Virus record (IMG/VR): IMGVR_UViG_3300030102_003029
Coordinates: 1-37,035 of that record
Direction: 5' to 3' (one strand)
Source of the DNA: a virus
Length of the DNA: 37,035 bases
Shown here: one piece after another, positions 8,534 to 29,558 of the stretch
Layout: each line of letters starts with the position of its first letter
How positions within the stretch are numbered: the first letter of the stretch is position 1
Translations under genes and position numbers: made by a program
Notes under the pieces: model-generated
The model's input: the letters and a program-made list of their open reading frames with translations, nothing else
The model's database searches: none
What the model was told of the DNA's origin: nothing

Positions 8534-9657
8534 ATGTCAACTCAGGTCACTACGGCGTTTGTGAACCAGTTTAGTTCCAACGTCGCAATGCTCTCGCAGC
8601 AGATGGGAAGTCTGTTGCGAGGTGCCGTGGACACCGAAAGTGTCACCGGCGAAAAAGCTTTTGGATAAAGAGCCACCGCCCAGTAATAGGCGCGTGCAAA
8701 CTAGGTGAATTGCTGGGAACCCTAAGTCCGCAAGGATATGGCAATCAGCAGGGAAGCCGCGCAAGCGGAACCTTCAACGACTATCCCTTCGGGGAGTAGG
8801 GCCAAGTGGTCCGAAGCGCCTAGCCCCTAGTTTCTAGGGTGATGATATAGTCTCGTCCCTGTCCGAAAGGCAGGGGAGCTGCTTCGTGCAGCCGGTCTAG
8901 TTTAACGAACTAGATTGAAGAAATCGTTTTCGATCAAATCGGAGAAGCAGCCGCGGTTGCGCGCACGTCAAGGCACGGGGATACACCCCTCGTCGAGACA
9001 CCGCACAGCCGCAGAATGGTAAGCCTCACTTCGTATGAGTGGGCCGACCTTATCGACGATGCTGATAAAGTCCGCATGTTGATCGACCCGACGTCTTCGT
9101 ATGCCCGTGCGGCAGCGGCGGCGATTGGTCGGGCAATGGACGATGCCATCATCGACGCCCTTGGCGGCACTGCGAAAACTGGCAAAGAAGGCACGACCTC
9201 CACGTCGTTCCCGGCTGGTCAGAAGATCGCACATGCCTCTGGCGGCTTGACGATTGCGAAGCTGGTATCGGCGAAGAAGCTGCTCGATGCCCAGTCGGTT
9301 GATCCGTCAATCAAGCGATACATCGTTGTATCGCCTGAGCAGATTGAAGACCTGCTCAACAACACGACCGTCACTTCAGCGGATTTCAACACCGTCAAGG
9401 CGTTGGTCCAGGGTGACATAAATACGTTTGTTGGTTTCGAGTTTATCGTCTCGAACCGCCTCAAGGATGATGGCACGTCACGCCTTTGCTACGCATGGGC
9501 GCAGGACGGCTGCAAACTTGCGGTTGGTAAGGACGTGATGGCGCGGATCGATGAGCGCAGCGACAAGTCCTATTCCACGCAGGTTTACTACTGCGCGACC
9601 TTCGGGGCGACCCGGATGGAAGAAGACAAAGTCGTTGAAATCGCGTGCAACGAGTAA
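8534..9657 (+). CDS. major capsid protein, split by a group I intron: join(8534..8660, 8927..9657)
   Basis: Exon 1 (8534-8660) encodes MSTQVTTAFVNQFSSNVAML through SVTGEKA plus the first base of the next codon, then meets an in-frame TAA at 8666. Exon 2 (8927-9657) resumes with FDQIGEAAAVARTSRHGD and continues SLTSYEWADLIDDADKVRML and IDPTSSYARAAAAAIGRAM, all characteristic of this family of podovirus capsid proteins. Joining at 8660/8927 restores GEKAFFDQIG without gap or insertion and gives 285 aa, a normal length. Exon 2 alone has only an internal ATG at 9016 and would lack the N-terminal arm. AGGAG lies about 10 nt before the start at 8534. Confidence 0.88.
8661..8926 (+). ncRNA. group I self-splicing intron in the capsid gene
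   Basis: Conserved core elements appear in order. P is GAATTGCTGGGAAC at 8707-8720 and Q is GCAATCAGCAGGGAAG at 8741-8756; TGCTG pairs with CAGCA to make P4. R is TTCAACGACTA at 8773-8783 and S is GATGATATAGTC at 8841-8852; GACTA pairs with TAGTC to make P7. P6a is CCGC-GCAA-GCGG. A P9-type hairpin capped by GAAA lies at 8857-8875. P1 pairs GCTTTT (8657-8662) with AAAGAGC, giving the U-G wobble U8660-G8670 that sets the 5' splice site. The terminal G is 8926, and exon 2's TTT can pair with AAA at 8667-8669 as P10. No endonuclease ORF lies inside. Confidence 0.92.
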
Positions 9658-24568: not shown

Positions 24569-25002
24569 TCAGCGCTAACCTGATCGACAGCATCAAGCGC
24601 CACGAAGGGTTTTCCGCGACCGCGTACCGCTGCCCAACCGGGCGCCTTACCATCGGCTTTGGACGGTGTGTGGACCCCGACGAACCGGGAACGGGCATCA
24701 CTGAAGAAGAAGCGGAAGACCTGCTCGCAAACGATCTGGTGAAATTTGAAGCCGCAGCGCGGCGTGTGGTAGGCGACAACATTTGGTCGCTGCTTAACCA
24801 GGTACGCCGCGAGGCGCTGATTGAGATGGCGTTCAATATGGGCGCCGGCAACCTCGCGAAGTTCAAGCGCATGATCAACGCGCTAATGGCGGAAGATTAC
24901 GAGGCCGCTGCTACGCAGGCGCTCGACAGCCGGTGGGCCGACCAAGTAGGCAAGAGGGCTGACCGGATTGCGGAGCGGCTCCGCACAGGCGCGTATGCCT
25001 AA
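24565..25002 (+). CDS. endolysin, GH24 lysozyme (muramidase)
   Basis: A 145-aa T4-lysozyme-like enzyme cutting the MurNAc-GlcNAc bond. The catalytic Glu14 lies in KRHEGF. The second catalytic position, Asp20 in T4, is Cys23 here, and Thr29 follows, giving the E-8aa-C-5aa-T spacing known as an active variant of the family. TIGFGRCVD and REALIEMAFNMGAGNLAKF are further signatures. No signal peptide is present, so release depends on the holin. The start is GTG within the holin stop. Confidence 0.92.
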   Translation: MISANLIDSIKRHEGFSATAYRCPTGRLTIGFGRCVDPDEPGTGITEEEAEDLLANDLVKFEAAARRVVGDNIWSLLNQVRREALIEMAFNMGAGNLAKFKRMINALMAEDYEAAATQALDSRWADQVGKRADRIAERLRTGAYA

Positions 25003-25351
25003 CCAGCGCCACATCGATGGCGACGTTTGCGAGCTTATTTGCGCGGAGCATTTCCTGCGGCTGGGGTACTGGGTCTTCCCCGCTGTGCAGGGCAGCAGCC
25101 CGGTCGATCTTGTGATAATCAACGAAAATGGCGTGCGCCTGATCCAAGTTAAAAAGAACGCAGAGCGCACGAACCCCGGTCGCAAGCGCACCGCGCGGAT
25201 ACACCGTTCTCGTTCTGATTTGCAAAAGGCACTGGGTGTTGAAATGGTGTATGTTGATCCGATCGCACGCACGGTATTCGTGACCAATCACAATTTTCAC
25301 GCCAACCGAAAGCGACCCACTGAATTGAACGACCCATTGCCAAAAATTTAA
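24995..25351 (+). CDS. PD-(D/E)XK nuclease, resolvase- or homing-endonuclease-like
   Basis: A 118-aa protein starting 8 nt inside the endolysin gene. The core is HIDGDVCELICAEHFLRLGY, then SSPVDLVIINENG and RLIQVKKN. That is the order helix Glu, Asp, Gln-x-Lys of small PD-(D/E)XK enzymes such as the I-Ssp6803I-like and Hjc groups, where Gln may replace the Glu. A basic segment (NPGRKRTARIHRSRSD) follows. It lies between the lysis cassette and attP, a typical place for acquired genes. Whether it resolves junctions or is a free-standing homing enzyme cannot be decided here. Confidence 0.6.
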   Translation: MPNQRHIDGDVCELICAEHFLRLGYWVFPAVQGSSPVDLVIINENGVRLIQVKKNAERTNPGRKRTARIHRSRSDLQKALGVEMVYVDPIARTVFVTNHNFHANRKRPTELNDPLPKI

Positions 25352-28943: not shown

Positions 28944-29558
28944 TTACGTTATGGATGTTCCGCACACGATGTGGATCGCAGATATAGTATCTCGTCGAAT
29001 CGTAATTTCTTTCGACGGATTGTACTGACGAAGCGTCACTTCGTCGTCATCGGCGCTCACATATTCTTTGACGATTGCGGTGCGCGTCTTGCCATCCTCA
29101 ATCTGGACGACCACGTCGTCGCCTTTCCGCGGCGGCTTGCCGGGGCGGACGTAAACGATTTCGCCCTCGCGGAAACGCGGCTCCATCGACGTGCCGACAA
29201 CGAACACGGCATACCCGTTTGCGCTGCTTGCCATCAATGGGTGGCGATCAACGTATTCAACCGGGCTGCTTACGTCGGTCACGTCGGCGCCCAAGCCCGC
29301 GGCTGCATTGCCATAAACAGGTATCTGGTTTTCGCCAACGTCTTTGGGCGGTGGTCCGCCGTTCATGTCAAAGCCCATCACTTCGTTGGCTGTGCAGCCC
29401 AGTGCTTCGGCTATCTTTTCCGCCAGGGCAGGGCGCGGCTCACGCTCTCCGCGAGTGTAGACGCGCAGCGTCGGCGCCTTCACGTCTATCAGCTTGGCAA
29501 GCTCAGGTATCTTTAGACCGGCCCGCGCAGCGAGTTCGGCAATACGGTTCTGTGGCAT
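28944..29558 (-). CDS. cI: CI/LexA-type phage repressor
   Basis: A 204-aa repressor. The N-terminal XRE helix-turn-helix (AELAARAGLKIPELAKLIDV) is followed by a linker and an S24 peptidase-like domain. The cleavage site is Ala87-Gly88 (NAAAG), the nucleophile Ser124 (VGTSMEP) and the general base Lys164 (TAIVKEY). It should maintain lysogeny and self-cleave upon RecA activation. It is divergent from the Cro-like gene. Dyads at 28918, 29602 and 29658 are its likely operators. The ATG at 29558 has no clear ribosome binding site. Confidence 0.93.
   Translation of the reverse strand: MPQNRIAELAARAGLKIPELAKLIDVKAPTLRVYTRGEREPRPALAEKIAEALGCTANEVMGFDMNGGPPPKDVGENQIPVYGNAAAGLGADVTDVSSPVEYVDRHPLMASSANGYAVFVVGTSMEPRFREGEIVYVRPGKPPRKGDDVVVQIEDGKTRTAIVKEYVSADDDEVTLRQYNPSKEITIRRDTISAIHIVCGTSIT

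Follow-up and report, generated by a model that had tools for sequence, protein, structure and literature searches.

Compact group I introns without endonuclease genes in a phage major capsid gene: one copy at codon 43 and its relatives at nine sites of the capsid family

Group I splicing begins when guanosine, held in P7, attacks the RNA just 3' of the U in the U.G pair at the splice site; in the second step exon 1, aligned by P10, attacks behind the G with which the intron ends. More than one such element may occupy a single phage gene, as in Twort orf142, which carries multiple IA-type introns. The intron in the major capsid protein (MCP) gene of the cluster J mycobacteriophage LittleE is spliced during infection according to RT-PCR and N-terminal sequencing (PMC3706429), and the capsid subunit gene of lactococcal phage Tuc2009, from a phage group unrelated to the one studied here, is mentioned as containing an intron (cited in PMC3706429). 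The DNA polymerase and terminase genes of Bastillevirinae have two or three IA-type introns per gene (PMC11878797). Introns without their own endonuclease can home in trans (PMC3984707, PMC10448857), and such collaborative homing has been described for the psbA intron of S-PM2 with F-CphI (PMC3984707, PMC6083498).

Among the phage genomes compared here, phage C72C1 (OQ984150) has an RF00028 match of 81.8 bits at 1988-2456, between two CDS annotated as 'major head protein' and with no intron annotation; its MCP is likewise split, but belongs to the family phrog_1328. Two further phages have other genes split: in DSS3_VP1 (MN602266) a group I match of 93.9 bits at 1453-1669 lies between pieces of the terminase large subunit, with a small ORF in the gap, and in Klebsiella phage KPN234 (PV446873) the RNA polymerase gene is divided at 812-1616 by a group I intron-like region with an ORF (30 bits, below the gathering score).

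The window, i.e. the whole 37,035-nt stretch of viral DNA from IMG/VR analysed here, resembles LittleE in having a group I type intron in the major capsid gene (PMC3706429). The LittleE intron is ca. 819 bp long, contains a LAGLIDADG-like gene and occupies a single site, in an HK97-like siphovirus of an actinobacterium (PMC3706429), whereas the intron of the window has 266 nt and no internal gene, interrupts an MCP of the PF19821 type, and belongs to a family with nine sites. The Bastillevirinae introns are in 32 of 45 cases endonuclease-bearing, have a mean length of 802 bases and are not in the MCP (PMC11878797). The psbA intron of S-PM2 is, like the MCP introns, mobile and devoid of its own endonuclease, but it has F-CphI as partner, when none was identified for the MCP introns. 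From both Bastillevirinae and Twort orf142 the present MCP family differs in that three short introns may reside in one 858-nt MCP gene. On comparative grounds, codon 43 of the MCP gene almost certainly holds a compact IA-type group I intron that would be spliced out, being one of a capsid-only set spread by recombination. The features of the locus are as follows.

8534..8660, + strand: first exon of the MCP gene, 42 full codons and one further nt, with the 3' end GAA AAA GCU U
8661..8926, + strand: group I intron of 266 nt, no internal gene (RF00028; boundaries from empty sites and covariation)
8657..8673, + strand: P1, exon GCUU(UU) 8657-8662 paired to the guide 8668-8673, the 5' splice site being at U8660.G8670
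8666-8668, + strand: in-frame stop TAA just inside the intron, starting at intron base 6
8701..8823, + strand: P3, 8701-8707 with 8817-8823; double changes in 4/7 pairs
8710..8751, + strand: P4, 8710-8715 with 8746-8751, P5 enclosed (RF00028 and base-by-base check)
8779..8852, + strand: P7, the guanosine-binding site, 8779-8783 with 8848-8852; invariant in 14 introns
8784-8795 and 8800-8811, + strand: P7.1 and P7.2 hairpins between P7 and P3, as in IA-type introns
8825..8839, + strand: P8 (base-by-base check)
8857..8914, + strand: P9, P9.1 and P9.2 hairpins (base-by-base check and folding)
8926..8928, + strand: 3' splice site, terminal G8926; U8927 and U8928 pair with A8669 and A8668 (P10)
8927..9657, + strand: MCP exon 2, stop included (PF19821, phrog_3437)

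Unspliced, the frame from ATG 8534 comprises 44 codons and ends at TAA 8666-8668. Joining of 8660 to 8927 results in a single open frame for an MCP of 285 aa, with a junction peptide that spans GEK.AFFDQIGEAAAVAR, and this protein matches PF19821 Phage_capsid_2 over its full length (3.4e-95) as well as phrog_3437 (9e-95). Restoration of the frame by splicing at 8660/8927 had been proposed in a sequence-only reading of the window, and the restored product is indeed colinear with intronless relatives. Intact MCPs continue through the junction in pelagiphages (closest group, 62-69% aa identity) and in 79 of the 80 IMG/VR matches listed (best 94% aa identity), and codon 43 is empty in the close relatives L002-L005. 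Two other explanations of the split frame, a truncated capsid protein starting from the internal ATG 9016 and an MCP pseudogene, were ruled out because exon 1 is kept in all relatives and covariation sets the boundaries. The window phage is probably a temperate tailed phage, though the closest cultured relatives of its MCP are pelagiphages, since the window contains both an integrase gene (PF00589, 25904-27031) and a gene for a CI-like repressor (Peptidase_S24 and HTH, 28944-29558).

The group I model RF00028 (Intron_gpI) matched 8643-8875(+) with 70.3 bits (E-value 4.8e-16, gathering score 50), which was the sole Rfam match across the 37,035-bp record, and the folding of the intron was stronger than that of dinucleotide shuffles (MFE z-score -3.09). 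All helices in the window were checked base by base. Assignment to subgroup IA is suggested by the P7.1/P7.2 hairpins, as judged from these hairpins rather than from a subgroup-specific model. An endonuclease gene was absent from the 266 nt in the ORF list of the window. The sequence-only reading had postulated a group I intron without endonuclease gene at 8661-8926, with P4 and P7 pairings, a U-G wobble at the 5' site, a terminal G and a possible P10, and it had named a search with the Rfam group I model as a check; that search gave a match over the gathering score, each of the listed elements was located, and the P10 proposal gained from a covarying pair. Supported by empty-site relatives and by covariation among 14 homologous introns, the splice sites 8660/8927 stand, and on these comparisons the coordinates 8661-8926 are exact to the base. 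As an element it is canonical for group I, and its host gene is of a type already known to harbour introns.

Covariation was evaluated with 14 distinct codon-43 introns over 20 pairs of P1, P3, P6, P7 and P10. The tested pairs were formed in 100% of the cells (20 pairs x 14 introns), and double changes occurred in 8 of the 20 pairs. The covariation score was 0.380 in comparison with 0.136 for shuffled data (0/500), and it was at most 0.124 when the pairing was slid. The splice-site U.G (14/14) and the P7 strands GACUA/UAGUC were invariant, when the P1 pair adjoining the U.G (U8659-A8671 in the window) was U-A, C-G or G-C. The exon-side base of this pair is the third position of the capsid alanine codon, so the silent codon choice tracks the guide: the wobble base of GCU, GCC or GCG covaries with A, G or C in the intron guide. 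The P10 +2 pair alternates likewise between A-U and G-C (7 vs 7 introns), and in the codon-64 introns the guide follows the proline codon in the same manner, CCG occurring with GCGG and CCA with GUGG. The data thereby tie the choice between synonymous capsid codons to the guide sequence of the ribozyme.

Sequence elements for both splicing steps are present in the intron of the window. We infer that the late transcript folds and that an exogenous guanosine would attack after U8660, whereupon exon 1 would attack after G8926, and the ligated mRNA would encode the 285-aa capsid protein; splicing itself is deduced from these elements, and its efficiency, which the sequence-only reading expected for a highly expressed capsid gene, is presumed. 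The in-frame UAA at 8666-8668 would presumably halt ribosomes ahead of the catalytic core. It is very improbable that the intron is degenerate, with splicing lost in this phage and the contig representing a defective prophage or dead lineage. Such decay might be read from the inner P2 pair, where the window copy has A for G, a single C-A mismatch that is missing from close homologues, and from the integrase and repressor, with which the record could be a decaying prophage. Against it, the catalytic core is near-identical in five phages, no damage is seen in P1, P3, P7, P10 or the terminal G, and the MCP exons are open and conserved, which would be unexpected were the protein lost.

In total, 42 introns were counted in the MCP family, on 28 IMG/VR contigs; they occupy nine insertion sites, with up to three introns per gene. 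Splice sites of all 42 were placed by hand, and the sites are numbered by codons of the window MCP:

Codon 43: 16 contigs
Codon 60: 2 contigs
Codon 64: 8 contigs
Codon 69: 1 contig
Codon 84: 4 contigs
Codon ~92: 1 contig
Codon ~99: 1 contig
Codon 200: 3 contigs
Codon 257: 6 contigs

Seven of the nine sites fall within codons 43-99. Three introns in one gene were found in L083 (codons 43, 200 and 257) and in both L260 and L261 (codons 60, 84 and 257). The full-length introns are 188-269 nt long and without endonuclease gene. Rebuilt spliced coding sequences gave a continuous MCP in 12 relatives (L084 without exon 1), and RF00028 confirmed nearly all of the introns, the codon-200 intron of L094 scoring 48.2, just below the gathering score. 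The 16 codon-43 contigs (GEKAF/F) include the window and L084, which is cut by the contig end; the suggestion to look at this junction in other capsid genes thus yielded an intron in 15 further MCPs.

The set was assembled by sequence patterns: a core pattern found L083, L084 and L085, a pattern combining the P7 strand with the exon that follows added further codon-43 contigs, and a wider core pattern together with a codon-257 pattern enlarged the set. Since every site was found by patterns derived from known introns, nine is a minimum number of sites and the counts cannot be read as frequencies, and the distance limits of the patterns would miss introns with an endonuclease in the P9 loop. 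One contig, L097, was discarded as a chance pattern match. Another, L096, has at 1-470 a tape-measure-like exon and a foreign 5' intron half fused to the 3' half of the MCP intron described here, and was left out as a probable chimera produced by assembly error or by intron recombination. The same intron core was observed in L134, L154, L155, L169, L184 and L202 near a capsid-like protein of 23-28% identity; these may be introns of MCP genes from other capsid families.

A terminal G was present in the introns of all sites but codon 84. The four codon-84 introns (L084, L101, L260, L261) seem to have a terminal A where G is near-universal, their 3' site being set after ...UUA or ...AUA on the basis of P1 (GACCU/GGGUC), a 5-bp P10 (CAAUG/CAUUG) and the reading frame. 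In a tree of the introns, the sequences clustered by insertion site (9 changes, when the minimum is 8 and the shuffled mean 20.3), which indicates that each site has mostly retained its own intron lineage; deeper branches were poorly resolved.

All 23 group I matches of the 14 intron-bearing records, including records of 37.0, 33.5 and 21.8 kb, were located in the MCP; 13 viral relatives without introns, as well as one host genome, gave none. The MCP family is an intron hotspot. No introns were seen at 11 MCP loci of prophages in GTDB genomes. A description of introns in this MCP family was not found in the open-access literature, a scope in which subscription journals are mostly uncovered. 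The multi-site, capsid-only and endonuclease-free pattern is a more interesting result than the intron of the window itself.

The window intron is nearly identical to those of L074 (265/266), L083 (264/266), L085 (264/266) and L101 (261/266), i.e. 98.1-99.6%, when the 4-fold sites of the capsid genes differ by 44-49% between the window and these four. A near-identical intron in phages with such strongly diverged 4-fold sites demonstrates, at the level of sequence, recent movement of the intron, which apparently took place without an endonuclease of its own. As is characteristic of homing introns, near-identical copies occupy the same site in alleles that have diverged, and other alleles are empty there; the endonuclease gene that a homing intron carries itself is missing from the window intron. 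Identity was raised in the flanks: between the window and L074 it is 100% over nt 1-40 of exon 2 (81.5% over the CDS), and between the window and L083 it is 98% over the 47 nt at the 3' end of exon 1. This looks like co-conversion, but is partly due to purifying selection, as L002, which has no intron, already shares 91% of its bases with the window directly ahead of the junction.

The window intron is one of a group of short, mutually similar introns that among these phages were found only in the capsid gene, at nine conserved sites, and at each site the copy would pass to empty alleles of co-infecting phages via recombination within the gene. The transfer may be driven by ordinary homologous recombination or by a break from an endonuclease encoded elsewhere. 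For the former, in which co-infecting phages swap pieces of the conserved capsid gene and neutral introns hitch-hike, the chances are somewhat short of even. Contig L101 (2796-4141) contains a mosaic MCP, the N-terminal part with two introns being ca. 91-93% (aa) identical to the window and the C-terminal part 66%; this mosaic, and the outcome of the endonuclease searches, are consistent with plain recombination. However, the introns are far more alike than the exon stretches beyond the flanks, which suggests drive, and the confinement of group I matches to the MCP is left unexplained.

Both the near-identity of the intron in diverged phages and the raised identity at the junction would also be expected from collaborative homing in trans, for which precedents exist in phages (PMC3984707, PMC10448857, PMC6083498), and we tentatively regard as possible that a free-standing endonuclease, from elsewhere in the genome or from a co-infecting phage, cuts the empty MCP site. 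Among the searched records, GIY-YIG, LAGLIDADG_3, HNH and T5orf172 produced no match, which speaks against such an enzyme, and HNH_3 produced only one, in record G004 ca. 5 kb from the MCP gene, which could be a candidate. Of these five families, no free-standing endonuclease adjoined the MCP gene in the window, as it would in collaborative homing, though an enzyme of an undescribed family or one encoded off the contig may still act. The window also encodes, between endolysin and integrase, a small PD-(D/E)XK-like protein (24995-25348, phrog_5018, weak PF11645 with E-value 0.006), a weak candidate that was rejected as homing helper, being absent from the 13 other intron-bearing records, many of which are short fragments.

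That the capsid gene serves as a dedicated multi-site landing zone, with endonuclease-free introns kept because they help the phage, seems unlikely; a filled site could not be cut by competitors' capsid-targeting endonucleases, or splicing could gate late capsid expression. If this were true, nine sites, at most three introns per gene and the lack of group I matches elsewhere in the records would be the trace of an arms race in which the capsid gene is at stake.

Gene callers split the capsid genes that bear these introns, so such phages may seem to be without capsid. Evidenced phage capsid introns are few, and here one capsid family yields 42 at nine sites, and close relatives differ in whether a site is filled or empty. 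Two questions are thereby made testable: how introns spread fast without endonucleases, and whether a gene expressed at a very high level is damaged or protected by them.
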